Origin: a virus
Direction: 5' to 3' (one strand)
DNA: 42,159 nucleotides
IMG/VR virus record: IMGVR_UViG_3300037104_000769
Span: 1-42,159 of that record
Shown: one piece after another, positions 19,276 to 42,087 of the stretch
How the letters are laid out: each line of letters opens with the position of its first letter
Numbering within the stretch: position 1 is the stretch's first letter
Translations under genes and position numbers: made by a program
The notes under the pieces: generated by a model
Seen by the model: only the letters and a program-made list of their open reading frames with translations
What the model was told of the DNA's origin: nothing
Databases searched by the model: none

Positions 19276-19292
19276 CGCAGCCCCGAGCCTAC

Positions 19293-25502: not shown

Positions 25503-26804
25503 ATGAGCATTGCCGTGGACGTCCAGATGTGGCCGATCTCCCGACCAATCCCGTACGCCCGGAATGCCCGTGTTTGCCCCGAGGAAGCGATCTCCAAGGT
25601 CGCCGGCTCCATCCACGAGTTTGGTTTCAAGAACCCCATCCTGGTCGACGGCGACGGCACGATCATCGCCGGACACACGCGCCTTCTCTCGGCCCAGCGA
25701 CTGGAGCTGTCCGAGGTACCGGTGATCGTCTGCGCCGACCTCTCGCCGGCGAAGGTCAAGGCGCTGCGCCTCGCCGACAACCGCACGGCGCAGGAGACGA
25801 GCTGGGACGACGAACTGCTCGCCATCGAGCTGGAGGAATTACTCGGCCTGGACGTCGACCTTGACCTGACTGGATTCGACCCCGAAGAGATTGCGGCGCA
25901 CCTTGCCGATCCGACCGAGGGGCTCACGGGCGAGGATGAACCCGGGCCCGTTCCCGAGATCCCCGCAACGCAGGCCGGCGACCTGTGGCTGCTCGGCAAG
26001 CACCGTCTGCTCTGCGGCGACTCGACCAGCGAGGACGACGTCAAGCGCTTGATGGACGGGCGCCTCGCCGTGCTCATGGCCACCGACCCGCCCTACCTCG
26101 TCGACTACACCGGCGGCAACCATCCTCAAACGTGGGCCAACGGCGGCAAGGCTCCCGGCGCTCCTCACGATGCCGGCACCAAGCATTGGGACGCCTATTC
26201 GGATCACGAGAGCTCCGTCGCCTTCTACCGCGACTTCCTGACCACGGCCATCGCCGACGCGCTCGCCTCGCACCCCTTCGTCTACCAGTGGTTCGGCATG
26301 ATGAAGGTCGACATCGTCATGGAGTCATGGCGCGCCGCGGGCCTGCTCCCACATCAGGTGCTGATCTGGAAGAAGAGCCGGCACGTGCTCACGCGCTGCG
26401 ACTTCATGTGGGACTACGAGCCGTTCATGTACGGGTGGGTGCAAGGCGATCGCCCCGAGTCCGACGTCAGGCCGCCGGCGAACGCCTGCGCCGTCTGGGA
26501 AGTCGAGAGTCGGATTGAGGACGACCCCGGCAGCATCCATCCGACGATGAAGCCCGTCGAGCTCATCCGCCGCCCGATCCTCTACCACACTAAACCCGGC
26601 GGCCTCATCTACGAGCCCTTCAGCGGCTCCGGCACAGCGATCATCGCCGCCGAGAACACAGGCCGCGCTTGCTGCGCCATGGAGCAGAGCCCCGCCTTCG
26701 TCGACGCCGCTGTGGCGCGCTGGGAGGCGTATACGGGCGAAGAAGCGACGCTCGAAGGTGACGGGCACACGTTCTCCGAGGTCGCGCAGGAGCGCCTCTC
26801 GTGA
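25503..26804 (+). CDS. ParB-like domain fused to DNA methyltransferase
   Basis: A 433-residue protein. Residues 10-100 are a ParB/Srx-type N-terminal domain: IPYARNARVCPEEAISKVAG, ILVDGDGTIIAGHTRLLSAQ (GHTR at 57-60), and LRLADNRTAQ. The methyltransferase follows: LLCGDSTSEDDVKRL, DPPY (195-198, motif IV) and YEPFSGSGTAI (370-380, motif I), again the beta-class order for N6-adenine or N4-cytosine. This fusion is common in phages, next to the terminase genes as here. It probably methylates phage DNA before packaging, so as to evade host restriction. Specificity cannot be read from the sequence. Confidence 0.92.
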   Translation: MSIAVDVQMWPISRPIPYARNARVCPEEAISKVAGSIHEFGFKNPILVDGDGTIIAGHTRLLSAQRLELSEVPVIVCADLSPAKVKALRLADNRTAQETSWDDELLAIELEELLGLDVDLDLTGFDPEEIAAHLADPTEGLTGEDEPGPVPEIPATQAGDLWLLGKHRLLCGDSTSEDDVKRLMDGRLAVLMATDPPYLVDYTGGNHPQTWANGGKAPGAPHDAGTKHWDAYSDHESSVAFYRDFLTTAIADALASHPFVYQWFGMMKVDIVMESWRAAGLLPHQVLIWKKSRHVLTRCDFMWDYEPFMYGWVQGDRPESDVRPPANACAVWEVESRIEDDPGSIHPTMKPVELIRRPILYHTKPGGLIYEPFSGSGTAIIAAENTGRACCAMEQSPAFVDAAVARWEAYTGEEATLEGDGHTFSEVAQERLS

Positions 26805-27241
26805 ACGCCGGTCCGTCCAGCAAGGTCACGATCAGATCCCGCGTCGGCATCGTCTACCGTCTGCTGCTCTTGGGCCTCGATCGCCAGCGCATCATCGATC
26901 ACGTGTGCTCCAAGTACCCCTCCTGGCCGAAGAGCGAGAGCACCATCGACCGCTACATCAAGCGCGCCAACGTGCTCCTCGAGCAGGCTGGAGTCACGGA
27001 GCGGCCGGTAGAGTTCGGGCGTTCGCTGGCGCGTAAGCACGACATCTTCGCCCGCTGCATGCAGGACAAGGACTACCGCGGCGCCCTGGCCGCCCAGAAG
27101 GAGATCGACGAGCTGCTCGGACTCAAGGCGCCGGTGAAGATCGACGTCGCCAGTGAACGTGAGCGCCTGGTCGAGTTCATGGTCGAGGACGTGATGCGTG
27201 AAGCCAGCAGAGCCACCGCGGAAGCTCAGAGCGGCGACTGA
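26801..27241 (+). CDS. terS: Terminase small subunit
   Basis: GTG 26801 overlaps the stop of the methyltransferase (GTGA). The 146-residue protein has an N-terminal HTH (VGIVYRLLLLGLDRQRIIDH, STIDRYIKRANVLLEQ) and a helical middle with HDIFARCMQDKDYRGALAAQ, the pattern of small terminase subunits in Mu-like and related phages, which recognise DNA for packaging. It precedes and overlaps the large subunit by 44 bases. Confidence 0.78.
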   Translation: MNAGPSSKVTIRSRVGIVYRLLLLGLDRQRIIDHVCSKYPSWPKSESTIDRYIKRANVLLEQAGVTERPVEFGRSLARKHDIFARCMQDKDYRGALAAQKEIDELLGLKAPVKIDVASERERLVEFMVEDVMREASRATAEAQSGD

Positions 27242-28691
27242 GCGCGTGGTCGCGCGCCTCTCCGCCGCCGAGGTCACTGCACAGATCGCCGAGTACGAGG
27301 CGCGCAGCGCCAGCGGCCTGATCACGCCCACCGAACTCTCCTTCATCGAGTCGCTCTCGATCGAGGACAAGCTCTCCGGCGGCCTCATCCCCTTCACGCT
27401 CTGGGACTGCCAGAAGGACTTCGTGGGGCGCATGAACGCGCACGAGCGCCTCTTCGCGCTCAAGTGCCGGCAGATCGGCATCACCTGGCTGGTCCTGGCG
27501 CACCTGCTCTACCTCTCGCAGTTCTGGGGCAACCGCCTCTTCCTCATCGCCAGCCAGTCGGGCTCAGATGCGATCGACGCGCTGCACCGCCTGCGCATCC
27601 TCTACAACTCGTTGCCCGAGAAGCCGAGCGCGCTCACCAAGGACAACACCGAGGAGATCGCCTTCGCCAACGGCTCGCGCTTCGAGTCCATGAAGGCGAC
27701 CAAGCGCGCCGGCCGCTCCAAGGCAGCGTTCGCCAGCTTCGCCGACGAGTTCGCCTTCTGGGACTGGCCCGAGGAGCAGTTGAACGCGCTCGACTCGGCC
27801 TCGCAGAGCCTCTTCGCGGTGAGCACCGGCAACGGGCCCGGGGACCTGGCGCACACCATCTGGGGCCAGGCGCAGCAGGGCATCGGACGCTGGGAGTCGG
27901 TCTTCTACCCGTGGAGCGCGCACCCAGGCCGCGACGAGGAATGGTATCGCCAGAACGTCACCGAGGCGCCCGAGCCACGCCTTGCCCGCCGCGAGCATGC
28001 GGCCACGCCGGCCGACGCCTTCGCCGCTCCGGGCGGCGCCTTCTTCGAGCGCTGGTCTGCGGACAACATCACCAAGCAGCGCGCCGAGCACAACTGGAAG
28101 ACCGTGCGCGCGGTCGACTTCGGGCGTCGTCACCCGGCCTGCCTGTGGATTCAGAAGACGCCCACCGGCCAGCCAATCGTGGTGGCCGAATTCACGCCGG
28201 CGCAGCGCGTCGTCTCGGCGGCGATGACCACGGCGGAGTTCGCCCAGAACATCAGGCGCATCGACGCCGAGCTGGGACTCTTCGAAGCGCCCGGGACCAC
28301 GTACTGCGATCCTGCTGGCAAGGCTGCCTCCGCTCAGACCGGCGAGTCCGAGTTCGACATCTTCGCGCGAGCTGGCCTGGCGCCGGTAGGCGAGCCTTCC
28401 GGCATCCGCGACGGCTGCGTGCGCCTCTTCAACCACATCTCGGACCCCGATCTGCCGCTGCTTGTCAGCGACGCTTGCCCATGGCTCATCGAGTGCATCA
28501 GCACCGTGCGCCCCGACAAGGCCAAGCCCGACCTTTACGACCAGAGCGAGTCGAGCCCGTACCAGCACGCCTTGGACGCGCTGAGGTATTGGGCGGTCAA
28601 CGATGTCGCCTTCGACTACGACGAGTGGGCGGACGAGGATGAGGAGCCGACCATCGGCGTCGCCAGCGGCATGTGGGGGAGGAAGTGGTGA
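27198..28691 (+). CDS. terL: Terminase large subunit
   Basis: A 497-residue protein from GTG 27198; GTG 27246 is a possible later start. The ATPase has KCRQIGITW (about residues 89-97), the deviant Walker A of this family, and FASFADEFAFWDW with the DE of Walker B. The nuclease domain has VRAVDFGRRH with the first Asp, YCDPAGKAA, and HALDALRYW with the last Asp. It cuts and pumps DNA into the procapsid. The sequence is of the Mu-like type, in keeping with the Mu-like head genes downstream. Confidence 0.92.
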   Translation: MKPAEPPRKLRAATERVVARLSAAEVTAQIAEYEARSASGLITPTELSFIESLSIEDKLSGGLIPFTLWDCQKDFVGRMNAHERLFALKCRQIGITWLVLAHLLYLSQFWGNRLFLIASQSGSDAIDALHRLRILYNSLPEKPSALTKDNTEEIAFANGSRFESMKATKRAGRSKAAFASFADEFAFWDWPEEQLNALDSASQSLFAVSTGNGPGDLAHTIWGQAQQGIGRWESVFYPWSAHPGRDEEWYRQNVTEAPEPRLARREHAATPADAFAAPGGAFFERWSADNITKQRAEHNWKTVRAVDFGRRHPACLWIQKTPTGQPIVVAEFTPAQRVVSAAMTTAEFAQNIRRIDAELGLFEAPGTTYCDPAGKAASAQTGESEFDIFARAGLAPVGEPSGIRDGCVRLFNHISDPDLPLLVSDACPWLIECISTVRPDKAKPDLYDQSESSPYQHALDALRYWAVNDVAFDYDEWADEDEEPTIGVASGMWGRKW

Positions 28692-28828
28692 TCCCGCCGC
28701 AGCACCTCATCGTCACTCCCGAGCCGGCCGCCGTCATCGCCGACTACTGGGAGCAGATGACGCAGGCGGTTCCCGACCTCTTCAACGCCTGGTTCGCTAT
28801 GGTGCCGGCGTGTGGGGCAAACGACTGA
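28688..28828 (+). CDS. Small protein after TerL
   Basis: A 46-residue frame, GTG 28688 to TGA 28828, GTGA-coupled to TerL. It contains a short amphipathic helix (DYWEQMTQAVPDLFNAWFAM). No family recognised. Support is coupling and codon pattern. Confidence 0.48.
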   Translation: MIPPQHLIVTPEPAAVIADYWEQMTQAVPDLFNAWFAMVPACGAND

Positions 28829-29036
28829 CCACGACTCTGTGTACACCCCTGCTACCGTAGATAGCGGATAAGGAAAGAGGGCCGGAATCCCCTGCCAGGG
28901 ACCCGGCCCGATGCATGTCCCCCAGTCATGAAGGAGCGTGCACGTCGAAGCCTAGCCTTGGTGGCGGTTCGCGTCAACATTCCACAGCCAGCGCCACGCC
29001 CGGCGCTGGCGTTGCCGTCTCACAGTGCAAGATTCC
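28829..29036. other. Intergenic region with two hairpins, no clear gene
   Basis: A 208-base gap between TerL and portal genes. GGGCCGG (28879-28885) pairs with CCGGCCC (28903-28909), with an inner CCC/GGG pairing. GCCAGCGCC (28987-28995) and GGCGCTGGC (29002-29010) form a perfect 9-bp stem. Between them lies one copy of the start-associated element (28919-28936) without a suitable start codon. A lost gene is likely. No strong promoter was seen. Confidence 0.55.
28919..28936 (+). promoter_or_regulatory. Start-associated element, orphan copy A
   Basis: CCCCCAGTCATGAAGGAG differs from the consensus at one base. It has a Shine-Dalgarno but the only nearby start codon (GTG 28938, one base after it) opens a five-codon frame. 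It probably marks a decayed gene. Confidence 0.55.
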
Positions 29037-29111
29037 ATGATCGCCTTCCTCGCCTGCTGGACCGCCTTGTTCATCCTCGTGATGTCGTTCTGGGCGAAGG
29101 CGTCCTGGTGA
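29037..29111 (+). CDS. Membrane micro-protein
   Basis: A 24-residue frame from ATG 29037 to TGA 29111, overlapping the next gene's GTG. It is almost one hydrophobic segment with several Trp and Phe (IAFLACWTALFILVMSFW). No ribosome-binding site is obvious, so support is limited to its GTGA overlap. Confidence 0.35.
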   Translation: MIAFLACWTALFILVMSFWAKASW

Positions 29112-29290
29112 GCACGGTCTTCGACGTCGGGGATCCCCGCGACAACGCACCCGACGTGGCGTACCGCCTGGTCGGTACGCGGCGACCGAACAACTGCATC
29201 ACAACCCCGCTCGAGAAGGTGCTGCCGGCCGAGCCCGGCGACTTCTCCACAGGGACCATTCTCCCGGACGACACCGAGCACGGCCGCTGA
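29108..29290 (+). CDS. Small protein before portal
   Basis: GTG 29108 gives 60 residues; longer readings extend into a region with weak coding character. The protein is beta-rich and polar (VFDVGDPRDNAPDVAYRLVG, LEKVLPAEPGDFSTGTIL). Its TGA shares the last base with the ATG of the portal gene. No family recognised; perhaps a small head protein. Confidence 0.52.
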   Translation: MSTVFDVGDPRDNAPDVAYRLVGTRRPNNCITTPLEKVLPAEPGDFSTGTILPDDTEHGR

Positions 29291-31569
29291 TGGGTGTGCT
29301 CGACCGCATCCGCCACCCCTTCGGCCTCGCTGAGGGCGCCGGAAAGCCCGACCTGCAGGAGCAGGGCGATACAGGCATGGGCTTCTGGGGGTTTACGGAG
29401 CCCGGAACAGCCCGCCGCATTCGCGACCTCGAGTACCTGCACGACCTGCAGGGCCAGCGCGCCTTCCCGATCTATGACCGCATGCGCCTCAGCGACCCCA
29501 AGGTCGACGGCCTGCTGTCCGTGCGCAAGTTGCCGCTGATGAAGGCCGAGTGGCGCATCGAGTCGTCTGACCCCAAGAGCGACGCCGCCAACAAGGTCGC
29601 CGACTTCGTGCGCGAGAACCTCTTCGAGCGCATGGCCTACCCGTGGCACTCGGTGCTCTGGGAGACGATGCTGCATAGCGACTACGGCTTTGCTCCCTTC
29701 GAGATCGTCTGGGCCGAACCGGACGGCAAGAACTACCGCGTCGACCGCCTCGCCCTGCGCCCGCCCTCAACCATCTGGTGGATCTGGGGCGCCAACGGAC
29801 GCATCGAGAAGGTCGAGCAGTCGGTCTTCGGCCACTGGCTCACCATCCCCGGCGAGAAACTCATGTGGTTCGTGAACCGCCGCGAGGGCGAGAACTGGCG
29901 CGGCCACGCTCTGCTGCGACCGATGCACAAGCCGTGGTACGCGAAGGAGCGCCTCGAGGTGCTCGAGATGATCCTCGCCGAGCGCGGCGGCGGCATCCCG
30001 GTCTTCAAGATGGGCACCAGTGCACAGGCCAACAAGGCGCTGCGCGCCAAGGTCGACTCGATGATCCGCAACTTCCGCGTTGGCGAGACCATGGGCATGC
30101 GCCTGCCGGCGGACGTCGAGTTCCTGCTTGAGACGCCCGCCTCGAGCCTCTCCGACATCCACGAGATGAAGGTCTACTACGATCAGCAGCTCAGCAACGT
30201 GGCGCTGGCGCAGGTGCTGGACCTCGGCAAGACCGCGACCGGCTCGCGCTCGCTCGGCCTGACCCTTGGGGACATGCTGATCGACGCCTGCGAGGCCGAG
30301 GCCAATGGCATCGAGGACACCTTCAACGCCCGCGAGGGCCTGATCTGGCAGATGGTGACCTACAACTTCGGCGAGGACCCGAACGTCATGCCGAAGCTGC
30401 GCGCAGGGAAGCTCGGCAAGGTCGACGCGCTCTCCTTCGGCCAGGGCCTCAACAACATGGCGCAAGCCGGACTGCGTTTCGACGACAAGCTCACAGTCAG
30501 CTACCTGCGCGACCTTCTGGGCCTGCCGGCGGTCGAGGACGAGGCGATAGACGAGCAGGCGAACGACTCCGCGAACCAGACGATTACGACGCCTGTGCCC
30601 ACGAGTGCCGTTCCGATGCTGCCGGCCGCTGCGGGCGGGCAGACGCTCAAGCAGCAGAGCATCGCCGCCGGACAGGCGGTGGGCGAGGTCAAGGCCGACG
30701 TGAGCAAGCCTTCCACGCCGCTTCTTCCGCAGCAGGTGCGCATCAAGGGCGCCGAGGGCAGCTACTGGCGCGAGCCGCGCGGCCCGGAGATGTTCGCCGA
30801 CCTGGCAGAGCTCGGAACAGCGCTCGACGACGGCAAGACTGCGGTGCGCACGGCGACGCAGGGCGTGCGCGAGAAGATGGTGCGCGAGCTCGTGACTCGC
30901 GGCCGTGAGGCGCAGGCGCAAGGCCGCATGGACTCGTTCCTGGCCGGCCGCCCGCCAATGGTCGATGCGTTGCAGGCCAAGGTCGAGGGCGTGCTCAGCG
31001 GCTTCTACGGCAAGGGCCGCAGCACGGTCGCCGATGAGCTCGCACGTCAGCACGCTGACAAGCCCGTTGTCGCACAGCAGCTCGAGCAGCGTGAGCAGGG
31101 CGCGATCGCAGCGGCCGAACCCTTCAAGCCCCTGGCCTCACTTGGCGCTGTCGTACAGGTCGTGCGCGACCATGCGCAGGCCATGGCGCGCAGCCTGGCG
31201 GACGTCGCCAAGCATGCCGTGACAGCGCAGCTGCTGCGTGCGCAGGGCGGCCCAGTGCCAGACGAGACAGTGATCGAGATGGCGATGCGCGACTCCGACG
31301 CCGCAGTTCTGCGCACCGCAGGCACCGTGACGCAGCTCTTCAGCGAGGGCCGCGCAGACGAGGCCGCAGCGCAGGCGCAGGACATCCGCGACGGGGTCTA
31401 CTCAGCGCTGCTCGATGCCGCCACGTGCGACGCCTGCGAGCCCATGGACGGCGAGACGACCACGGACCTCGACGAGGCCGCTAGCTGGACTCCGAACCCC
31501 GACTGCGAAGGCGGCGACCGCTGCCGGTGCCTCGTCTTCTACGAAATCTCCCAGGACCAAGGAGCCTGA
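29290..31569 (+). CDS. Portal protein (DUF935, Mu gp29-like) fused to Mu F-like head domain
   Basis: A 759-residue protein. Residues 1 to about 430 are a DUF935 portal: YDRMRLSDPKVDGLLSVRKL, WEIVWAEP-type strands, PWYAKERLEVLEMILAERGG, and VALAQVLDLGKTATGSRSLG. A Pro/Ala/Gln linker follows (about 430-500). The C-terminal 250 residues are helical and end in DGVYSALLDAATCDACEPMDG, then DCEGGDRCRCLVFYE, the cysteine-rich end of Mu F-like head morphogenesis proteins. In Mu these are two genes, gp29 and gp30. Here they are one chain, so each of the 12 portal subunits would carry a minor-head domain. It lies directly before the protease-scaffold gene. Confidence 0.88.
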   Translation: MGVLDRIRHPFGLAEGAGKPDLQEQGDTGMGFWGFTEPGTARRIRDLEYLHDLQGQRAFPIYDRMRLSDPKVDGLLSVRKLPLMKAEWRIESSDPKSDAANKVADFVRENLFERMAYPWHSVLWETMLHSDYGFAPFEIVWAEPDGKNYRVDRLALRPPSTIWWIWGANGRIEKVEQSVFGHWLTIPGEKLMWFVNRREGENWRGHALLRPMHKPWYAKERLEVLEMILAERGGGIPVFKMGTSAQANKALRAKVDSMIRNFRVGETMGMRLPADVEFLLETPASSLSDIHEMKVYYDQQLSNVALAQVLDLGKTATGSRSLGLTLGDMLIDACEAEANGIEDTFNAREGLIWQMVTYNFGEDPNVMPKLRAGKLGKVDALSFGQGLNNMAQAGLRFDDKLTVSYLRDLLGLPAVEDEAIDEQANDSANQTITTPVPTSAVPMLPAAAGGQTLKQQSIAAGQAVGEVKADVSKPSTPLLPQQVRIKGAEGSYWREPRGPEMFADLAELGTALDDGKTAVRTATQGVREKMVRELVTRGREAQAQGRMDSFLAGRPPMVDALQAKVEGVLSGFYGKGRSTVADELARQHADKPVVAQQLEQREQGAIAAAEPFKPLASLGAVVQVVRDHAQAMARSLADVAKHAVTAQLLRAQGGPVPDETVIEMAMRDSDAAVLRTAGTVTQLFSEGRADEAAAQAQDIRDGVYSALLDAATCDACEPMDGETTTDLDEAASWTPNPDCEGGDRCRCLVFYEISQDQGA

Positions 31570-31570
31570 C

Positions 31571-32953
31571 ATGTTGACTGCCGCACGCCTCTACCGCCTG
31601 CGCCTCGCTGAGACGATCGCTGCCGGCGACGTGACGCCGATGATGGTCTTCCCGATCGGCGAGTGGCACTCGGCGCGCTACCCGGACCTGCCGCTCACAG
31701 AGGACCTGGCGCACGAGCTGATCGCCAACTTCGAGGCTGGCATCCTCGGCACCGAGCCCGTCGTCGACTCTTCCGGCAAGCACGACACCAGTGCGCCTGC
31801 CGCCGGCTGGGTGAAGAAGGTCTACCTCGCGTCCTACGAGGAAGGGGAGGTCACCGGCATGGCCCTCTGGGCCGACGTCGAGTGGACCAGCCTCGGGGCC
31901 ACCCTGCTCAGCGACAACCAGTACAAGTACGGCTCCGTAGAGATCGGCCCCGTCACCATGAACGAGGGCGGCGACGAGGTGCCGAACGTGCTGCGCAGCC
32001 TCACGCTCACGAACACGCCCGTGCTGCGCATCATGCCTGGCGTCAAGAACGCGAAGGCCAAGCAGCGCGTCGTCGGCATGCTCAGCGAGATCGTGCTGAC
32101 GCTCTCCGAGCTGACCCTCGGCGGCACTCCCGACGAGGCCGCCGACGACGACGAGAATCAGGCCGACGTGGACGACCAGATCGGCACGCTGCTGGCCGGA
32201 CTCGGCGAACGCTACGCCGCCGGAGACGACCATGCCAAGGCCGTGATGCTGACCCACCTGACCGCGCTCTGCGATCAGTGGAAGACCTCCGAAGACCCCG
32301 GCCCCGCCAAGCCCGGCGCGAGCCGTTCCGAGCCCGATTCGCAGCAAAGCAAGACGGCTGCGAAGGGCGCACCGGAAGACACGCAAAGGCTCAGCGAGAG
32401 CCGAACCCAAGAAGGGAGTGATTCAGACATGGCAGATTTCAAGAACATCGCAGTCAGCCTCGGCCTGTCCGAGGAAGCGAGCGAGGAGATGGTCCTGGCC
32501 GAGGTGCAGAAGCGCACCGACGCCGCCGCCGAGTCGCAGAAAGCGGCCCGCAAGGTGGAGGCCACCGCCAAGCTCGATGAAGCGGTGCGCGAACGTCACA
32601 TCCTGCCGAGCCAGGTCGACGGCCTCATGGCGCTCTCAGAGAGCGTCCCTGAGGCGTTCGTCAAGTTCCTCGCGGACTCGGAGAAGGTCATCGTGGGCCC
32701 CCTCGCCGGCGAGATCGGCATGGGCAATCGCGAAGGCAAGAACGAGTCCGGTGACAGCGAGCTCGTCGGCGATCCCGCCAAGGCGCTCGCCGAGGCTCGC
32801 AAGGTCTACATGAGCGAGCACGGCCTCAAGGGTGCCAAGGGCATCGACGAGGCCGACCAGGCTCTGCGCATCGCCAAGCCGCAGCTCTACACGGAGTACG
32901 CGGCGCAGATCAGCAACCCCATCGGCGCGGCTGCGCCGGTCACCCAGCCCTAA
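31571..32953 (+). CDS. Mu I-like head maturation protease/scaffold
   Basis: ATG 31571 has AAGGAG upstream. The 460-residue protein starts with a protease-type beta domain (MMVFPIGEWHSARYPDLPLT, HELIANFEAG, AAGWVKKVYLA, LRSLTLTNTPVLRI) that resembles Mu gpI-like proteases. An acidic linker (about 195-285) precedes a helical scaffold-like C-terminus. The order protease, scaffold, decoration, major capsid is standard. The C-terminal half can also be made alone from an internal start (see 32429). The catalytic residues could not be assigned with certainty. Confidence 0.78.
   Translation: MLTAARLYRLRLAETIAAGDVTPMMVFPIGEWHSARYPDLPLTEDLAHELIANFEAGILGTEPVVDSSGKHDTSAPAAGWVKKVYLASYEEGEVTGMALWADVEWTSLGATLLSDNQYKYGSVEIGPVTMNEGGDEVPNVLRSLTLTNTPVLRIMPGVKNAKAKQRVVGMLSEIVLTLSELTLGGTPDEAADDDENQADVDDQIGTLLAGLGERYAAGDDHAKAVMLTHLTALCDQWKTSEDPGPAKPGASRSEPDSQQSKTAAKGAPEDTQRLSESRTQEGSDSDMADFKNIAVSLGLSEEASEEMVLAEVQKRTDAAAESQKAARKVEATAKLDEAVRERHILPSQVDGLMALSESVPEAFVKFLADSEKVIVGPLAGEIGMGNREGKNESGDSELVGDPAKALAEARKVYMSEHGLKGAKGIDEADQALRIAKPQLYTEYAAQISNPIGAAAPVTQP
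32429..32953 (+). CDS. Nested scaffold protein (internal start of the protease gene)
   Basis: ATG 32429 is in frame with the protease and is preceded by AGAAGGGAGTGA, the same sequence that stands before the decoration gene at 32997. It would give a 174-residue helical scaffold alone. Mu gpZ within gpI and lambda Nu3 within C are known precedents. The independent start is inferred from sequence only. Confidence 0.6.
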   Translation: MADFKNIAVSLGLSEEASEEMVLAEVQKRTDAAAESQKAARKVEATAKLDEAVRERHILPSQVDGLMALSESVPEAFVKFLADSEKVIVGPLAGEIGMGNREGKNESGDSELVGDPAKALAEARKVYMSEHGLKGAKGIDEADQALRIAKPQLYTEYAAQISNPIGAAAPVTQP

Positions 32954-32964
32954 CCACCCCACGA

Positions 32965-32986
32965 CCCCCAGTCACGCAGAAGGGAG
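32965..32986 (+). promoter_or_regulatory. Start-associated element, copy B
   Basis: CCCCCAGTCACGCAGAAGGG then AG: the conserved element with a four-base insertion, ending in a Shine-Dalgarno 10 bases before ATG 32997. Confidence 0.65.
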
Positions 32987-32996
32987 TGAATCGTAA

Positions 32997-33764
32997 ATGG
33001 CAAGTCAGTCACACGACATCTTCGCGGATGACGCAAGCTTCACCGCCGACACCGCGCTGAGCAAGCACCAGGCCGTGACCGTCGGCACCCTCAAGGGCCA
33101 CGTCACAGCCGTCACGGTGGCGGACACGGGCATCGGCGTCGCGGCCGCAAGCTGCGCCTCCGGTGACACCGTGCGCGTCATCTTGTTCGGCACCGCCATT
33201 CAAGTCCTTGCGGACGGCACGTCGGCAATCGCTGTCGGCGATCCGCTGCACGTCAACGCCAGCGGCAACTTCGTCAAGCAGACCGTGGGCCTCGCCTTCA
33301 CGGCGGTCGCCCTCGAAGACCTCGCCAGCGGCCTCGCCTACATCGAGGTCATGTCCATCAACGGCACCGCGGCAACGCAGTCGGCCATGCTCGCCATGAC
33401 CGTCGACACCGCCGCCGGCCTCGCCATCGGCGACCCCGTCATGCTCGGCACGCTTGCCGGGCACGTCGACCTCTACGCCGCCGCGTCCGAGAAGATCCTC
33501 TTCGGTCATGCACAGACCGCCGGCGCGCAGAACGCCAAGATCAACGTCATGCCCGTCGGTCCCATCGGCCTGGCCAAGGTCTACGGCACCGTTGCCGTGG
33601 GCGACACCCTCGCAGAGGGCAGCACCAACAGCTATCTGGTCGTCAGTGACGCCGTCACCGCTGGCGCCATCATGGCCATCGCCATGACGGGCCACACCGG
33701 CTCCACCGACACCACCGTCCTGACCGTCGAGTTCCTGGGCGTTGGTGCCCAGACCGCATCCTGA
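32997..33764 (+). CDS. Capsid decoration protein (DUF2190-like, two modules)
   Basis: A 255-residue protein that is almost entirely beta strands and small residues. Two similar modules are visible: residues about 20-95 (HQAVTVGTLKGHVTAVTVAD ... GVAAASCASGDTVRVILFGT ... AVGDPLHVNASGNF) and about 130-215 (AMTVDTAAGLAIGDPVMLGT ... ILFGHAQTAGAQNAKINVMP ... VAVGDTLAEGSTN). That is the DUF2190 capsid cement fold. It lies between scaffold and major capsid genes, the usual place. It probably binds to the outside of the expanded head. Confidence 0.8.
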   Translation: MASQSHDIFADDASFTADTALSKHQAVTVGTLKGHVTAVTVADTGIGVAAASCASGDTVRVILFGTAIQVLADGTSAIAVGDPLHVNASGNFVKQTVGLAFTAVALEDLASGLAYIEVMSINGTAATQSAMLAMTVDTAAGLAIGDPVMLGTLAGHVDLYAAASEKILFGHAQTAGAQNAKINVMPVGPIGLAKVYGTVAVGDTLAEGSTNSYLVVSDAVTAGAIMAIAMTGHTGSTDTTVLTVEFLGVGAQTAS

Positions 33765-33778
33765 AAGGGGGCTGAATC

Positions 33779-34777
33779 ATGGCAGTCGTAGCACACTCAA
33801 GCGATCTAGGTCTCTTCCACCACGACGAGGCTCTCACCGGCTACGCCCAGGGCTATGCCCAGGACGCGACCATGTTCATCGCCGACCAGATCGCTCCGCC
33901 GATCCCGGTCGAAAACAAGTCCGACACGTACTACGTCGGAAAGACCGAGCGGCTCCAGCGCCACAATGTGCGCCGCGCCCCCGGTGGCCTGTTCGCCCAG
34001 ATCGAGTGGGAGGTCAGCGAAGACGCCTACATCGCCAAGCCCTACGGCTGTGAAGTCACGGCCCCGTGGGAGTGGAGTAAGAACGCGGATGCCGCGATCG
34101 ACTTCGAGCAGCAGAACAGTGTGCTCGCGGTCGACGTGCTGATGCTCGACTACGAGGCCCGCGTCGCGGCCGCCGCGTCGAGCACGAGCAACTTCACCCA
34201 CAACGATGCGGCAGAGGAGTGGGACGAGGTTGCTACCGGTGTGTCGGTCAGCGATCCCTACAGCGACATCGAGACCGCCAAGGCGATTGTCATCGCCGCC
34301 ACGGGCCACGTGCCGAACACCGTCTGGATGAACTACCCGACCTACCGCGCGCTCGTGAACAACACCAACATGCGCGAGCGCGTGAAGTACACGGAGATGG
34401 GCTCGGCTGCTGTCATCACGCCGAACCTGCTCTGCCATGTGTTCGACATCGAGAAGCTGCTCGTCGGAAAGGCCGTCTATGACGCCTCTGTCCCGGGCTC
34501 CGGCGTCGATCCCGCGATGACGTGGGTGTGGCCGACCGGCACGGTCGGCGTGGCCTACATCGACAACCGCATCGCGACCTTGCGTGCGGCGATCCTGGCC
34601 CCGATGCGGACCTTCGTGTGGACGGCCATGGGCGGGCGCTTCAGCACCCGTTCCTACGTCTTCGATCCGCGCAACGCGAACGTCGTGCAGTGCGCCGACT
34701 ACGTGGACGAGAAGGTCACCTGCGCTGGCGCGCAGACCCTGATCACAGCCTGCGTGGCGGTCACCAGCGACGACTGA
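33779..34777 (+). CDS. Major capsid protein
   Basis: A 332-residue protein with AAAGGGGG before its ATG. Sequence features fit an HK97-fold capsid of the Mu T-like/GPO type: YAQGYAQDATMFIADQIAPP and IPVENKSDTYYVG at the N-arm, NSVLAVDVLMLDYEARVAAA as the long spine helix, PNTVWMNYPTYRALVNN and VWPTGTVGVAYID in the A and P domains. Length is typical. It forms the head shell. A perfect 11-bp hairpin follows the gene. Confidence 0.88.
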   Translation: MAVVAHSSDLGLFHHDEALTGYAQGYAQDATMFIADQIAPPIPVENKSDTYYVGKTERLQRHNVRRAPGGLFAQIEWEVSEDAYIAKPYGCEVTAPWEWSKNADAAIDFEQQNSVLAVDVLMLDYEARVAAAASSTSNFTHNDAAEEWDEVATGVSVSDPYSDIETAKAIVIAATGHVPNTVWMNYPTYRALVNNTNMRERVKYTEMGSAAVITPNLLCHVFDIEKLLVGKAVYDASVPGSGVDPAMTWVWPTGTVGVAYIDNRIATLRAAILAPMRTFVWTAMGGRFSTRSYVFDPRNANVVQCADYVDEKVTCAGAQTLITACVAVTSDD

Positions 34778-34791
34778 CGCTAAGAGCAGAC

Positions 34792-34826
34792 GGGGGCCGG
34801 GCTGACTGCCAAGAGGCCCGGCCCCC
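34792..34826. terminator. Hairpin after major capsid gene
   Basis: GGGGGCCGGGC (34792-34802) and GCCCGGCCCCC (34816-34826) make a perfect 11-bp stem with a 13-base loop, lacking a T tract. It may reduce read-through or protect the capsid message. It stands just before the start-associated element, as a similar hairpin does at 28879-28909. Confidence 0.6.
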
Positions 34827-34834
34827 GGATCAAT

Positions 34835-34852
34835 CCCCCAGTCACGAGGGAG
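34835..34852 (+). promoter_or_regulatory. Start-associated element, copy C
   Basis: CCCCCAGTCACGAGGGAG, one base from consensus, ending five bases before the GTG of the connector gene at 34858. Confidence 0.65.
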
Positions 34853-34857
34853 CGGGA

Positions 34858-35304
34858 GTGGCCACATATTGCACAGTCGATGACGTCCAGCAATGGCTGA
34901 CGGCTGGCCTGACAATCACCGATGCCTCGACGCCATCTATAAGCGCCGTGCAGTCCATGATCGTGAACGTTGGCGACGAGATCGATGCTCTGCTCGACTC
35001 CCGCGGCTACGCGCTGCCGATCGACCCGGAGACGACCGACGCTGCTCTGAAGCGCGTCCTCTCCATCCTTGAGACCGCGAACCTCTACGGTGCGCTCGCC
35101 CGCTTCTACAAGGTCAAGTACGCGAGCGGCGAGTCCGGACCGGGGTCGGACAAGGGCGCCTTCAAGGCGTGGAACGACATGTGGCTCCAGATTCGCAACG
35201 ACATCGAGACGCTGAAGATGGGCCTCGCCGATCCCCGCGAGGACGACATCAGCGGCTTCGACGACGACACCGACCCGTGGGTGGAACGCGAGAGCGTCTT
35301 CTAA
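34858..35304 (+). CDS. Head-tail connector protein
   Basis: GTG 34858 follows the element by five bases. The 148-residue protein begins MATYCTVDDVQQWL, like many head-tail connector proteins (gp6-like or DUF1320-type), and has the expected helical body (EIDALLDSRGYALPIDPETT, ALKRVLSILETANLYGALAR) and an acidic C-terminus. It would bind below the portal. The last base is shared with the ATG of the next gene. Confidence 0.68.
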   Translation: MATYCTVDDVQQWLTAGLTITDASTPSISAVQSMIVNVGDEIDALLDSRGYALPIDPETTDAALKRVLSILETANLYGALARFYKVKYASGESGPGSDKGAFKAWNDMWLQIRNDIETLKMGLADPREDDISGFDDDTDPWVERESVF

Positions 35305-35873
35305 TGGCAAAAGTCAACGCCACCGTCCAGTTCGACTGGGACCCGCCGCTGGCCGAGTTTCACGTGCAGATGAGCCGCTTCGGTGAGGACCTCTCCGACT
35401 TCACGGACCTGTTCGCGGTCATCGGCGGCTACTTCAAGCAGGAGATGGCGGCCGAGTTCGTGAGCGAGGGCGAGACCTCCGGAAGCCACTGGAAGGAGCT
35501 CTCCGACAATCCCGAGGGCCACGGCTACAAGTCATGGAAGGAACGCAAGTTCCCCGGCCGCGGCATCGGATTCCTCAGCGGCGCGCTGATCGAGTCGCTG
35601 ACCGGCGGCGCCGGCTACACCGAGATCATCACGCCGCTCACGGCCGAGTTCGGCCAGGCCGACGGCGCCACGGCCGCCGCTTACGGCGAGTACTTCGCCG
35701 AGGAACGTCCTGTGCTGCGCTTCACGCCGCAGCAGGGCGAGGTGTGGCAGAAGGCGACGCACCGCTGGGTCATCGATGCGATGCACCACGTCGGCGGCGC
35801 GGGTGCGCTCTCAAGCGTCGCCAACGCGCCACTCTCTGACCTGTCGTACTCCGAGACGCTGCCGAGCACGTGA
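35304..35873 (+). CDS. Tail completion / virion morphogenesis protein (Mu G-like)
   Basis: A 189-residue protein beginning at ATG 35304 (TAATG overlap). It has the N-terminal helix and the WKELSDNPEGHGYKSWKERK segment typical of phage virion morphogenesis (Mu gpG-like) proteins, followed by LSGALIESLTGG and EYFAEERPVLRFTPQQ. The 'L-x-x-G-x-L-x-x-S' strand is a hallmark. It joins the tail to the head. Confidence 0.72.
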   Translation: MAKVNATVQFDWDPPLAEFHVQMSRFGEDLSDFTDLFAVIGGYFKQEMAAEFVSEGETSGSHWKELSDNPEGHGYKSWKERKFPGRGIGFLSGALIESLTGGAGYTEIITPLTAEFGQADGATAAAYGEYFAEERPVLRFTPQQGEVWQKATHRWVIDAMHHVGGAGALSSVANAPLSDLSYSETLPST

Positions 35874-36412
35874 CGTCCTTCAACACGCAACCCGGACCGC
35901 GTATCGGCATCCTCACCGTGCTCCTGGAGGCGTACACCGCGCTACGCGGTGGGCTCCCCGCTCAGGTCGCCGCCATCAACGCCTGGGCGGCGGCGCAGGG
36001 CAGCCCCTACCAGATCGCCGAGCCCGACGTCATCTACTGCTACCTGACCTACCCCAAGTTCGTCAACGCCTACCCGGCGATCATGCTCGTGCCCGCCGAG
36101 ACGCGCTTCGGCATCCACGCGATCAGCGCCCCGCACCAGGACGAGTACCAGGTGCAGCGCTCGTGGATCTGCGACGTGCTCGACACCGGCGACGACTGGG
36201 CCGAGGTCACGGCCAAGCTCGGCCTCTGGGAGCTTGTCCTGATGGAGATCCTCGGCGACACCGACTGCCTCGACTGCGGCCACACGACCATCCAGGCGTC
36301 GTCGTTCACGCAGCCGCGCCTCACGAGCCGCACCAGCGGCGACCTGCTGCAGGACCTGCCCCTGCTCTTCGTCACCCAGACCTTTGAGTACACCGACCCC
36401 ACCGATGCCTAA
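35870..36412 (+). CDS. Tail terminator-like protein
   Basis: GTG 35870 overlaps the previous stop (GTGA). The 180-residue protein is alpha/beta with YAAINAWAAAQG-type helix, then IMLVPAETRFGIHAISAPHQ and beta strands. By length and position between the completion protein and the tube, it fits a tail terminator (neck) protein. Sequence alone is not decisive. Confidence 0.55.
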   Translation: MTSFNTQPGPRIGILTVLLEAYTALRGGLPAQVAAINAWAAAQGSPYQIAEPDVIYCYLTYPKFVNAYPAIMLVPAETRFGIHAISAPHQDEYQVQRSWICDVLDTGDDWAEVTAKLGLWELVLMEILGDTDCLDCGHTTIQASSFTQPRLTSRTSGDLLQDLPLLFVTQTFEYTDPTDA

Positions 36413-36420
36413 CCACCTAT

Positions 36421-36438
36421 CCCCCAGTCACGAAGGAG
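36421..36438 (+). promoter_or_regulatory. Start-associated element, copy D
   Basis: CCCCCAGTCACGAAGGAG, the consensus copy, ending 10 bases before ATG 36449. Confidence 0.65.
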
Positions 36439-36448
36439 TGATGCAGCC

Positions 36449-36598
36449 ATGCCGTTCGCAGTAGCCGGCGTGCCCGGCGTGTTCGCCACCGAAGCGGACG
36501 CGCAGGCAGCCATCAACGCGGCCAATGAGCCGCCCAAAACCGAGAAGAAGCCGGCGCCCAAGGCCGAGTCCAAGGACGATGAGGGAGGCGAGGCATGA
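36449..36598 (+). CDS. Small acidic/Lys-rich protein before tail tube
   Basis: A 49-residue protein from ATG 36449 to TGA 36598, after element copy D and ATGA-coupled to the tube gene. It has a VFATEADAQAAINAANE helix, then a Lys/Glu/Pro-rich charged tail. A short ATG at 36441 would yield only seven codons. No family recognised. Confidence 0.55.
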   Translation: MPFAVAGVPGVFATEADAQAAINAANEPPKTEKKPAPKAESKDDEGGEA

Positions 36599-37629
36599 GC
36601 GCCATCGGCCCCTACCTGCAGCTCGCGCTCGAGCAGGCCCCGAACTACGAAGGCGGCTCAAGCGCCGTCAGCAGCAACGTCTTCTACCCGCCGCTGGAGA
36701 CCATCAAGGACGACGACAAGCCGACGATGCTCGAGGAGCAGAACGTCATCCGCGGTTTCCTCGCGCGCATGCCGCACCTCGGTGTCGCCGAGTACAACCC
36801 TGACTGGCAGTTCGGCAAGATCCACGCGCGCCCGTCGCATCTCGGATTCTTCCTCGCCGCCATGCTCGGTTCGTGGACGACCACGGCCGGAAACGGCACG
36901 ACGGTCACGGACCCCGACGCGGTCGCCGTCCCCACCGGTGCCTACAAGCACGTCTTCACGTTCCGCTTCGCGACCGAGCCGCAGACGCTTCAGGCCATCG
37001 CCTGCAGCGGCGACGGCAAGCACCGCAAGGCCACCGGCGTAGCGCTCAATGACCTCGCCTTCTCCTGGCAGAACGGCGCCATGGTGCTCGACCCAACGGC
37101 GCTGGCGCTCTACACCGGCGACATTGCCGATCCCTCTGTCACGCCCGTCGTCGACCTGACGATGCCATTCCGCCAGGGTGACATGACCCTCACCTGGCTC
37201 GGCTCCTCTGCTCTCACGCGCGCCTTCGACTTCAAGTTCAACGCTCCGCTGGAGACCGTGCGCAGCCCCGTGCACGCCAGCCTCTACCCGACTGACGTCT
37301 GGTACAAGAACGGCGAGCTGCCCTACGTCTCCGGCAAGATCAGCAAGGCCACGCTGGAGGCTGCCGACCTCGCCGCGCTGTACGCCGGAGGCCAGTTCGC
37401 GGCCATGATCAAGATCGTGCACCGGCAGCAGATCGGCTCGACCGGCTACATGCCCAAGATGTGGGTCGACATGCCCGGCTGCGAGCTCGTGGGCATCACC
37501 CGTGACGACATCAAGGCAGAGCGCCGGCGCGAGGGTAGCTACACGTGGGAGAGCCGCTTCGACCACACGACCGGCAATCTCGTGACCGTCACACTGGTCA
37601 ACGACACCGCGGCCTACGCGACCTTCTGA
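36595..37629 (+). CDS. Major tail (tube) protein
   Basis: A 344-residue, beta-rich protein after the terminator-like gene and before chaperone-like genes. It includes DWQFGKIHARPSHLGFFLAA, GAYKHVFTFRF, FSWQNGAMVLDPTALALYTG, and a C-terminal SYTWESRFDHTTGNLVTVTL. These long alternating strands fit a siphovirus tail tube protein, and the size is in the usual range for tubes with an added domain. It should stack as hexamers along the tape measure. Confidence 0.72.
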   Translation: MSAIGPYLQLALEQAPNYEGGSSAVSSNVFYPPLETIKDDDKPTMLEEQNVIRGFLARMPHLGVAEYNPDWQFGKIHARPSHLGFFLAAMLGSWTTTAGNGTTVTDPDAVAVPTGAYKHVFTFRFATEPQTLQAIACSGDGKHRKATGVALNDLAFSWQNGAMVLDPTALALYTGDIADPSVTPVVDLTMPFRQGDMTLTWLGSSALTRAFDFKFNAPLETVRSPVHASLYPTDVWYKNGELPYVSGKISKATLEAADLAALYAGGQFAAMIKIVHRQQIGSTGYMPKMWVDMPGCELVGITRDDIKAERRREGSYTWESRFDHTTGNLVTVTLVNDTAAYATF

Positions 37630-37631
37630 CG

Positions 37632-38006
37632 GTGAACGTCAAGCTTCCCAGCGGCAAGGTCGCACCGCTCGAGCCGCCAACCCTCGACGCGCTGCTCTCC
37701 GGCGGCGGCAACGCCCTCGCGCTTGCCGCTGTCGTCTGGGCGTACCCCGAGGTCGACGTGACGACCCTGGGCCCGGCCGACGTGCTCTTCGTCGCCGGCT
37801 GGGCCCTCGGCCAGTTCTGTGCCAGCCCCGAGTGCGTCGAGTTTGCGACCGTGCTGCTTGACTTCGGCCAGATCCCGTCACAGCGCCTGGGAGTCAGCGA
37901 CCGCTCGCTCGCCTACGCGCTCGACCGCAGCTGTCACCTGGCAGTGCAGGCGGCGCGCACCCCGGCGCCAGAACCCGTTCAGTTCAACGGAGGGCTCGAT
38001 GAGTGA
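37632..38006 (+). CDS. Tail assembly chaperone-like protein 1
   Basis: GTG 37632 follows the tube stop. The 124-residue protein begins VKLPSGKVAPLEPPTLDALL, matching the 'LPSGxVAxL' start of the next protein. The two adjacent related proteins lie between tube and tape measure, where siphoviruses encode two chaperones. Usually the second is a frameshift product of the first; here each has a start, with an eight-base overlap. Confidence 0.62.
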   Translation: MNVKLPSGKVAPLEPPTLDALLSGGGNALALAAVVWAYPEVDVTTLGPADVLFVAGWALGQFCASPECVEFATVLLDFGQIPSQRLGVSDRSLAYALDRSCHLAVQAARTPAPEPVQFNGGLDE

Positions 38007-38388
38007 TCCCATCAAGGAAGCCCTGATAGCGACCCTCGAGGAGCTTGTCCCGACTCCCGCAGACCAGTGGGAGGAGGACGTGGACAAGGTCATCACGCTG
38101 CCGAGCGGTAACGTCGCCAAGCTGCGAGAGCCGGCGTTCCAGATGCACGTGCTGCTCAACACCTTCCCGCCGCACCTGCGCGCCATCACAGAGAAGCACA
38201 TCGCAGACAAGAAGGAGTGGGGGCAAGCCGAGAACCAGCAGCTCCTTGACTGGCTCATCTGCGAGTCGTTCGTCGAGCCTCGCGTGTCGCTGGCGAAGAA
38301 GACCGGCTGCCTGCACATCTCGCGGATCTCTGACCGCGACAAGGGTGCGGTCGTCTTCGCGCTCAATCTCCAGAGGTACGTGCGCTGA
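37999..38388 (+). CDS. Tail assembly chaperone-like protein 2
   Basis: A 129-residue protein from ATG 37999. It contains KVITLPSGNVAKLREPAFQM, the motif shared with the preceding protein, and a helical C-terminus with LLDWLICESFVEPRVSL. It overlaps the previous gene by eight bases and ends on the ATG of the tape measure. Position argues for a tail assembly chaperone. Confidence 0.62.
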   Translation: MSDPIKEALIATLEELVPTPADQWEEDVDKVITLPSGNVAKLREPAFQMHVLLNTFPPHLRAITEKHIADKKEWGQAENQQLLDWLICESFVEPRVSLAKKTGCLHISRISDRDKGAVVFALNLQRYVR

Positions 38389-40067
38389 TGGCGTCCGACG
38401 CTGTAGCTGTCCTGCGCCTCCTCCTCACCGGCGATTCGGCCGGTGCGGTCGCTGCGATCAAGGAAGTCGACGCAGCGACCCAGGTCAGCGCGGCTAAGAC
38501 CATCTCCGCTGAGGATGCGCAGTTCGCGGCGCAGAAGAAGAACGTCACCGCGGGTCGCGCCGGCATGGCGCTCATGGCCGGCGGCATCGGCCTGGTCGCC
38601 GCCGCCGTCTACGAGACCGGCAAGCAGTACAAGACCTTCGCCGAGGCCGTCGTCACCACCGAGCGCGTCACCAATCTCGGCGCAGAGGGCGCTTCGCGGC
38701 TCGTCGGAGAGTGGCAGACGATGGGTCTCAACGTCGAGTCCATGGGCCGCATCGTCGCGCGCTTCTCCAAGAACTACGAGACCGCGATCGACCCGACGAC
38801 GAAGAGCACGAACGCCGCCGTGGCCGCCTTCAAGGCTCTCGGCCTTGCGCCGGATCAACTGAAGAAGCTGGGCGCCGACCAGACGCTCGAGCTGGTGCGC
38901 TCCAAGCTCTCCGGCATGGCCGACCACGCAGAGCGCGCCAAGGTGGAGCTGGCGCTGTTCAGCGGCAGGTCCATGAGCCCCGAGCTCATGCGCTGGCTCG
39001 ACGCCAGCAACGCCGGCCTGGCGAAGATCGACGCGCAGCTCAAGAGCGCTGGCCTCATCTGGAACGAGGACCAGGTGAAGCAGGCAGAGCAGTTTGGTGG
39101 CGAGCTGCGCGCCGTCGAGGAGGAGTTCAAGGCAGTCGGCGTGTCCATCTTCCAGACGCTTGTGCCGGCGTTCTCTGACCTGCTCAAGGTGGGGCTCCCG
39201 GTGATGGGCGCCTTCAACCACCTGCCGGGGATCTTCAAAGACATCCTCGTCTTCGCGCCGGGCGTTGCCATGTTCGCGATCGGGCTCAACAAGTTCGCGG
39301 GGGCGCTGCAGGCAAGCTGGAAGAACGGCGTCGAGACCGTGAAGTTCATCAAGCAGCTCATCGGTGCAGAGAAGGTCGAGAAGATCGTGACCACAGAGGC
39401 CACCGTGGCCACGGAGGCGCAGACCACCGCCACCGTTGCTGGGACCGGCGCCATGAAGGCTGGCATCGTGACCATGGGGCTCTACGCCGCTGTGCTCGCC
39501 GGAATCGTCGCCGACATCTATCTGCTCGTGAAGGCGTACCAGGCGTGGCAGAGCGCCGAGGCAGCGATCCAGCAGGAGATGCAGCAGGCCAAGGGTGAGT
39601 CGGCCACTGCGAATACTGCTCAAGCGAAGATCGACGCTTGGAAGACCGCGCACCCTGGCCAGGCGCTGCCCGCCGACTACCAGGCGTTGCAGCAGAGTGT
39701 GACCACAGCGCAGACCGAGGCTCAGGGCAATGTCGGGCGTCAGGTGCTCAAGAATGCGCCGAGCAAGCTTCTCCTGGGCTCAGGATACAAGGCGCTGCTC
39801 GGATTGGCGGAGGGCATCGACACGGTGGTCAACACACCGACTCCCTTCGTTGCCGGCGAGGGCGCATATCCCGAGCGACTCACGGTCACGCCTTTGAAGG
39901 GCGGACGCGGCAGCGCCAGTGACCGTCAGGTCGTGCTGCAGATGCACTTCGCGGGCGCCAACTTCAACGGCGCCCCCGACGCGGCCACGGCGCGGCGCTG
40001 GGCGGGGCCAATCGGCGACGCGCTGATGGGCAAAGTGCGCGGCCACCTGACGGGCCAGAATGCCTAG
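38388..40067 (+). CDS. Tape measure protein
   Basis: A 559-residue protein with the longest helical stretch in the window. Hydrophobic segments are near residues 57-75, 285-300 and 365-383; charged helices (EMQQAKGESATANTAQAKID, QSVTTAQTEAQGNVG) fill the rest. Glycine/alanine-rich membrane-like stretches and the location after chaperones are typical. By the usual 1.5 angstrom per residue, the tail would be about 80 nm. Its ATG overlaps the previous TGA. Confidence 0.85.
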   Translation: MASDAVAVLRLLLTGDSAGAVAAIKEVDAATQVSAAKTISAEDAQFAAQKKNVTAGRAGMALMAGGIGLVAAAVYETGKQYKTFAEAVVTTERVTNLGAEGASRLVGEWQTMGLNVESMGRIVARFSKNYETAIDPTTKSTNAAVAAFKALGLAPDQLKKLGADQTLELVRSKLSGMADHAERAKVELALFSGRSMSPELMRWLDASNAGLAKIDAQLKSAGLIWNEDQVKQAEQFGGELRAVEEEFKAVGVSIFQTLVPAFSDLLKVGLPVMGAFNHLPGIFKDILVFAPGVAMFAIGLNKFAGALQASWKNGVETVKFIKQLIGAEKVEKIVTTEATVATEAQTTATVAGTGAMKAGIVTMGLYAAVLAGIVADIYLLVKAYQAWQSAEAAIQQEMQQAKGESATANTAQAKIDAWKTAHPGQALPADYQALQQSVTTAQTEAQGNVGRQVLKNAPSKLLLGSGYKALLGLAEGIDTVVNTPTPFVAGEGAYPERLTVTPLKGGRGSASDRQVVLQMHFAGANFNGAPDAATARRWAGPIGDALMGKVRGHLTGQNA

Positions 40068-40908: not shown

Positions 40909-42087
40909 GTGACCTACAACGGCGAGACTCCGTACACCGACGGTGCCTACACCGTCGTCGAGTTCCTGACGACGGGCGAGTTCGTCACGCCCACAGGCGT
41001 CACCGAGGCAGACGTTCTCGTGGTGGGTGGCGGCGGCGGCGGTTCGGCGGGCGGCGGCGGCGCGGGCGGGTTGCTCGACCTGAGCGGAGTCACGCTTTCA
41101 GGGACCATGGCTGTGGTCGTTGGCGCGGGCGGCGCGGGGCATCAGGCCGAATATATGGGCAACGTCTACCCTGAGGCTCCCGGGGACACAGGTGGAAACT
41201 CGACCTTTGCCGGATACACGGCCTACGGCGGCGGCGGCGGAGGCGAGGTTCACGACTCGATGATACCCGGCAACGGGCAGCCCGGCGGGTCCGGCGGCGG
41301 CGCCGGCCTCTCCAGCGTCGTTACCCACGACGGCGGCGCAGGGACCAGCGGGCAGGGCCACGACGGCGGCAGCGCCGGGTCACACTCCTACGGCTACCCC
41401 GGCGGCGGCGGCGGCGGCGCGGGCGCTGTAGGCGGCGCAGGCGCGACGAATCAGGGCGGCGCGGGCGGCGCGGGCGTGACGTGGCACGGCACGCTCTACG
41501 CTGAGGGCGGTGGCGGCGGCTGCTACAACAACGGCGCGGGCGGCGCGACTAGCGGCTGCGGAGGCGCAGGCCGCGTCGGCGGCGGGACTACGGTCGGCTA
41601 CGCGGGCGCGACCAACCGCGGCGGTGGCGGTGGCGGCGTTGGTCAGATGTCGAGCGTCGGCGGCGCGGGCGGCAGCGGCGTCGTCATCATCCGCTACCTC
41701 ACGCCGGGAAGTTCCTCCTACTTTTCGGCTGCCGGTGGCCTCCTGGTCAGCACGAGCGTCACGGTCGTGGTTCCCGAGGAGCGCGACTTCGTAGCCCACG
41801 GCGGTCTCACAGTCTCTGCAACCGTCGACCTCGCAAGCAAGACCTACGTCAAGGCCGCGGGCGGCGTCTCCTGCGCGCAGGACCCCTGCTGGATTGACGT
41901 GAGCGGCCTCTACAGCGGGCAGGTGCAGGCGGCCGGCGGAGTGCAGATCGTCACTACCATCGTGCGCATCAGCGTCGGCGAGGACCTGCCCCCAACCGAC
42001 GACATCGGCTGGCTCAGCGGTGAAGACACCATCGTGGCGCAGGGCGGCATGGTGAGCAGGACCTTCGCGGTCATGAGTGCGTCGTGA
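40909..42087 (+). CDS. Glycine-rich tail protein (copy 1)
   Basis: GTG 40909 gives 392 residues. The N-terminus (NGETPYTDGAYTVVEFLTTG) leads into a Gly-rich domain from about residue 40 to 255, with clusters of G around VVGGGGGGSAGGGGAGGLLD and closing strands GSGVVIIRYLTPGSSSYFSA. A repetitive C-terminus has SAAGGLL, AHGGLTV and KAAGGVS, i.e. several 'A-x-GG' strands. It is paralogous to 512-1621. Glycine-rich tail proteins are often attached to fibres and help adhesion. The end of this gene is repeated at window positions 1-90. Confidence 0.8.
   Translation: MTYNGETPYTDGAYTVVEFLTTGEFVTPTGVTEADVLVVGGGGGGSAGGGGAGGLLDLSGVTLSGTMAVVVGAGGAGHQAEYMGNVYPEAPGDTGGNSTFAGYTAYGGGGGGEVHDSMIPGNGQPGGSGGGAGLSSVVTHDGGAGTSGQGHDGGSAGSHSYGYPGGGGGGAGAVGGAGATNQGGAGGAGVTWHGTLYAEGGGGGCYNNGAGGATSGCGGAGRVGGGTTVGYAGATNRGGGGGGVGQMSSVGGAGGSGVVIIRYLTPGSSSYFSAAGGLLVSTSVTVVVPEERDFVAHGGLTVSATVDLASKTYVKAAGGVSCAQDPCWIDVSGLYSGQVQAAGGVQIVTTIVRISVGEDLPPTDDIGWLSGEDTIVAQGGMVSRTFAVMSAS

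Follow-up and report, generated by a model that had tools for sequence, protein, structure and literature searches.

Cluster K mycobacteriophages carry start-associated sequences (SAS), short asymmetric repeats that include a Shine-Dalgarno (SD) sequence and lie in one orientation just 5' of start codons (Pope 2011, PMC3203893; PMC12699233; PMC11373665). SAS have a 13-bp consensus (GGGATAGGAGCCC) with up to 2 mismatches, occur in 11-19 copies that are confined to the genome's non-structural half, are preceded by an inverted repeat at about half of the sites and are undetected in the related subcluster K8 (PMC3203893; PMC12699233; PMC11373665). The ESAS, which are tied to SAS, are inverted repeats of 17 bp, imperfect but with a consensus in common (PMC3203893; PMC12699233; PMC11373665) and hold putative SigA-like promoters (PMC11373665). 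Although phage repeats of this start-associated kind have been on record since 2011, their function has gone without a test, and that of the cluster K SAS still awaits experimental verification (PMC12699233). A second described system is that of the PeSL cassettes of T4-type phages, repeated junction cassettes with a stem-loop which, as summarized in a later paper, are thought to act in genome shuffling as well (Arbiol 2010, via PMC3950731).

The window analysed here is the whole stretch of DNA, a virus record of 42,159 bases with ~67% GC. A terminal direct repeat of 162 nt with 98% identity (1-162 and 41998-42159) makes it probable that the record is close to a whole genome. Its late structural operon has the order terminase, portal, Mu-like protease with a nested scaffold, cement protein, major capsid, Gp36-like connector, further genes and tail tube. 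An element composed of CCCCCAGTCAYG and an SD sequence is present in this operon in four copies (28919, 32965, 34835 and 36421), each of them intergenic and on the + strand, exactly where the original prediction had placed them. The copies and the features around them are as follows.

28879..28909, + strand: hairpin in the gap between the terminase module and the portal gene (z -1.87); the relative L019 has a hairpin at the same place, with a different sequence
28919..28936, + strand: element copy 1, CCCCCAGTCATGAAGGAG, 9 nt 3' of the hairpin, with a credible start absent for ~100 nt
32410..32421, + strand: AGAAGGGAGTGA at the nested scaffold start, common only to copy 2
32949..32958, + strand: CCTAACCACC block including the upstream gene's stop codon, junction 2
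32965..32986, + strand: element copy 2, CCCCCAGTCACGCAGAAGGGAG, putative SD for the cement gene (start 32997)
32997..33764, + strand: cement/decoration protein (PF09956), 3' of copy 2
34791..34827, + strand: post-capsid hairpin (z -4.62), found in relatives at the same position, usually with a different sequence
34835..34852, + strand: element copy 3, CCCCCAGTCACGAGGGAG, 7 nt 3' of the post-capsid hairpin, putative SD for the Gp36-like connector gene (GTG 34858)
34858..35304, + strand: head-tail connector with a weak match to Mu Gp36 (PF07030), 3' of copy 3
36408..36417, + strand: CCTAACCACC block including the upstream gene's stop codon, junction 4
36421..36438, + strand: element copy 4, CCCCCAGTCACGAAGGAG, putative SD for a 49-aa gene (ATG 36449)
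36449..36598, + strand: 49-aa gene, 3' of copy 4, overlapping the start of the tail tube gene

A credible start codon lies 5-14 nt past the end of three of the four copies (2, 3 and 4), and for these the description of the element as start-associated holds. It fails for copy 1, where the GTG found 1 nt after the SD (AAGGAG, 28931-28936) opens a frame of only five codons and the next credible start, at 29037, is ~100 nt away. The frame at 29037-29111 encodes a putative membrane peptide of 24 codons, shares 4 nt with the gene that follows and has a similar tiny counterpart at the same place in L028. The copies fall into two subtypes. Copies 2 and 4 have in common the block CCTAACCACC, which is confined to junctions 2 and 4 within the window, while copies 1 and 3 have in common GGCCGG/CCCGGCC hairpin arms, their spacing and GAGCG. 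A related sequence had also been noted at the nested scaffold start; this is AGAAGGGAGTGA, which is exact at two sites in the window only, copy 2 and the scaffold start itself. These longer matches, which link the sites in different pairs, resemble the product of copying between junctions.

The recurrence of the element is not due to chance. When CCCCCAGTCACGAAGGAG was searched for with up to 3 mismatches, four matches were found in the window (1, 2, 1 and 0 mismatches over 18 nt for copies 1 to 4), all between genes and on the + strand, with 0.04 expected from shuffles and none of 100 shuffles reaching four copies. The decamer CCCCCAGTCA is invariant in all four copies and exact nowhere else in the window. 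Four occurrences of a decamer are by themselves unremarkable in a 67% GC genome (~66-105 such decamers under Markov nulls), and a stricter count was made of decamers present at four or more places whose 8 following bases matched too (up to 2 mismatches). By this count, the element is the only family of at least four copies in the window, GGC/GCG repeats aside, and any such family arose in only 1 of 100 order-5 Markov genomes. A random-window k-mer test was set aside because it was dominated by GGC repeats. Between the terminase and tail tube genes, every gap longer than 20 nt contains one copy and the other gaps contain none. The element had no match in an Rfam search, nor did its region in a blastn search against isolated phages. 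A search of all viral contigs for the element pattern returned five stretches, three of which are one repeated locus; none was recurrent in its own locus or had the layout of the element.

Relatives were gathered by protein-alignment scans of viral contigs, and about a dozen distinct ones have largely the same head and tail genes (terminase 37-72%, capsid 28-64% identity). The gene order is nearly the same in L019 (and the near-identical L014-L017), L021, L026, L032, L023, L030 and L034; between the window and these seven, capsid identity is 43-64% and tail tube identity 57-65%, where covered. The original prediction had named relatives with the same genes and no element as evidence against it, and such relatives are what was found: there is no exact CCCCCAGTCA on either strand in 291 kb of relative loci, and the motif is absent from L019, L021, L023, L026, L030 and L034 (genes in nearly the same order, roughly 37-72% protein identity). 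Across twelve fuller relative records there is a single exact CCCCCAGTCACG, opposite an open coding frame. The window also has extra length at three junctions. Junction 4 measures 36 nt in the window and 11-14 nt in L019, L026, L023 and L030, in which it reads stop-GAGGAG-spacer-start; junction 2 measures 43 nt versus 22-29 nt in L019, L026 and L023; and the post-capsid hairpin is ~30 nt from the next start versus 14-21 nt in relatives. Because junction 2 of L030 is 47 nt long and lacks the element, gap length alone is weak proof. The element is thus a lineage-private addition of ~16-25 nt directly 5' of the SD. The contigs searched included no strain that is nearly identical to this phage, and no relatives were found with the capsid protein as the lone query or in two genome-collection scans.

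L019 (11814-12790), L021, L026 and L032 have two tandem cement-protein paralogues versus one in the window, and L023 (900-1500) and L030 (9430-9940) share a long near-identical terminase-portal stretch while these relatives are otherwise diverged. A 46-aa gene (28688-28828) lies 3' of the terminase gene in the window, whereas its homologue is 5' of terminase in L010 (89% identical DNA) and L013; as it is on opposite sides of terminase, this gene has moved.

G+C-rich hairpins were correctly predicted upstream of copies 1 and 3. Neither is followed by a T-run, and a terminator scan of the + strand did not list either one. The window shares a GC-rich post-capsid hairpin with L019, L021, L026, L032, L023, L018, L024, L025 and L034 (z -2.2 to -4.2 for the six folded from relatives). 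Most of these differ in sequence, but the hairpins of L021, L026 and L032 have the same arms as that at copy 3 (GGGGGCCGGG/CCCGGCCCCC), although the element is absent. The hairpin and element were thus ruled out as a single unit, since hairpins are found across the group without the element. The hairpin is therefore conserved on the 3' side of the capsid gene and is separate from the element.

The explanation that we favor, with moderate confidence, is that the element is a lineage-private junction and ribosome-binding repeat which was spread by copying and whose SD has an ordinary function. One intergenic stretch, consisting of a stop-codon spacer, CCCCCAGTCACG and an SD, would have been copied into further junctions of the late operon, and it would now give an SD to the next gene at three of them (cement, connector and the small gene preceding the tail tube). 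The invariance upstream of the SD would then stem mainly from recent copying, with likeness kept by recombination, instead of from translational need, and the two hairpins would be older and separate features of this phage group. Copying may have proceeded by recombination at short homologies, a route that fits the presence of phage genes for a Sak4-like annealing protein, an exonuclease-like protein and an SSB. The retention of the element at copy 1 without an adjoining start is counted in favor of copying. Several points count against it. Given how far even the closest relatives have diverged, a lineage-specific regulator that arrived with the element would look alike; the evidence for recombination was obtained on another repeat, one carried by a relative; and strict confinement to the late structural operon fits regulation equally well. 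The most probable view of the element is that of a gene joint which is specific to this lineage and was copied recently, and not that of a control switch on which the phage depends, although the distance to the closest relatives is too great for telling "recent" from "lineage-specific but functional".

A different repeat in three of the relatives suggests how such junctions may behave. The sequence CGCCCGCCGCACGGAAGGGGAG, which is unrelated to the window element, is found in about five copies in L014, L016 and L019 among the small genes upstream of terminase, and each copy overlaps the end of one small gene (e.g. ..ARRTEGEK*) as well as the SD and start of the next. Over 12 kb, L014 and L019 show 99% identity, and their single large indel is a 184-nt gene segment. 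This block is present in L019 and absent in L014 and L016; two CGCCCGCCGCACGGAAGGGGAG copies bound it exactly in L019 (2123-2342), whereas L014 (4687-4711) and L016 have a single hybrid copy at the indel. These sequences provide direct evidence that start-junction repeats in this phage group recombine. The two repeats are alike in that they are private, belong to the same phage group and sit at start junctions with an SD at the end; CGCCCGCCGCACGGAAGGGGAG differs in sequence, in lying partly within the C-termini of upstream genes and in its location 5' of terminase. The same count revealed no repeat family of at least four copies in L022, L024, L030, L036 or L039. We offer only as a speculation, and one with fairly long chances against it, that each lineage of this uncultured group evolves its own private start-junction repeat ending in an SD, through which the phage's own annealing recombination would gain, lose and swap genes while leaving translation intact, the window element being the late-operon version.

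The window has a second repeated start junction, in which an identical GTGGCGCCATGA occurs at 16037-16048, 16429-16440 and 17815-17826; at each site the preceding frame terminates in -VAP* and the ATG opens the gene that follows. Other features of the window include a single protein with an N6/N4 DNA methylase and a C-terminal Mrr-type restriction endonuclease domain (5505-7193), and repeated inverted sequences, GAAAGGTGCGCA..TGCGCACCTTTC, located 5' of the SSB gene (19292-19389), which could be an operator or replication origin. A ParB-like/DNA methylase fusion (25503-26804) is 82% identical in L039 while the terminase is only 37% identical, marking a sharp mosaic boundary.

The best-surviving alternative to copying, though an unlikely one, is a start-associated regulatory site at which a phage or host protein or an RNA would bind CCCCCAGTCA in the mRNA or DNA and adjust the late structural genes, as proposed for the cluster K SAS. 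The invariant decamer 5' of the SD, the single orientation, the restriction to one late operon and the inverted repeats upstream of two sites agree with regulation. However, a role tied to these genes is unsupported because all of the same-gene relatives lack the element, the hairpins are separate from it and copy 1 is away from any start. A lineage-specific role is possible. The RNA fold of the element is no better than that of shuffles (z 0.04 to 1.2), and antisense matches of at least 9/10 in the genome are the copies' own complements and one 9/10 site at 12006; as there is no good complementary site, a phage-encoded antisense RNA was ruled out. An SD-sequestering hairpin (CCCC with GGG) was also ruled out, being no better than shuffles. 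CCCCAGTCA is presumably complementary to a helix 44 stretch of 16S rRNA in some bacteria, but such pairing was rejected because this sequence and the SD stand in the wrong order for an extended duplex and no host has been assigned.

It is more doubtful that the copies are late promoters or mRNA-processing sites marking 5' ends within the late operon, with hairpins that end or protect the upstream transcript. Their position on one strand of one operon and the succession of hairpin and element at two junctions are consistent with this arrangement, for which the SigA-like promoters of ESAS are a parallel (PMC11373665). Against it, no sigma-70-like promoters were found in 27000-38500 versus 0.8 expected (sigma-70 may not be the host's type), the motif abuts the SD such that almost no leader is left, and an RNA polymerase was absent among the subset of genes scanned.

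The chances are slim that the copies are remnants of a small mobile or duplicated block (hairpin, element and SD) inserted at junctions. The extra 16-25 nt at three junctions and the arms, spacing and GAGCG common to copies 1 and 3 would fit, but arms of the copy 3 type occur in L021, L026 and L032 without the element, and neither a target-site duplication nor an encoded mover was recognized. Independent origin of similar strong ribosome-binding contexts at four junctions, by selection or chance, is already disfavored and very improbable: at this base composition chance suffices for the four decamer copies taken by themselves, and the SD part is expected, but the 18-nt match statistics, the rarity of any such family in null genomes, the paired longer flanks and the absence of the element from 291 kb of relatives of similar GC speak against it.

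The resemblance to cluster K SAS that had been proposed is fair as regards layout. Like SAS, the element is asymmetric, contains the SD, has a single orientation, is conserved beyond the SD, follows an inverted repeat at half of its sites and is missing in related phages. The inverted repeats, however, are not part of the element: unlike ESAS, they are GC hairpins at two of the four copies that are common to element-free relatives. The sequence is unrelated, as had been anticipated; GGGATAGGAGCCC is not enriched in the window, with no exact match, two matches with 2 mismatches and eight with up to 3 mismatches, which is fewer than chance. There are four copies versus 11-19, one of them off any start, and all four are between structural genes of the late operon, whereas SAS occupy the non-structural half. 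An early promoter is part of the PeSLs. As far as their summarized description goes, the element resembles them as a repeated junction cassette with a stem-loop at some copies; PeSLs are found among early genes, whereas the element is among late genes and has no recognized sigma-70-like promoter. The PeSL trait of copies bordering gene gain or loss was not seen for the element but appears in the CGCCCGCCGCACGGAAGGGGAG repeat of L014 and L019, and by the same description PeSLs are an earlier case of junction repeats that are tied to the shuffling of genes. With the same genes available with and without the element, and a sister group whose different repeat has an indel exactly between copies, recombination as an explanation of such repeats can be tested against regulation. 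The element is a modest new example of start-junction repeats and a member of neither the cluster K SAS nor the PeSLs.
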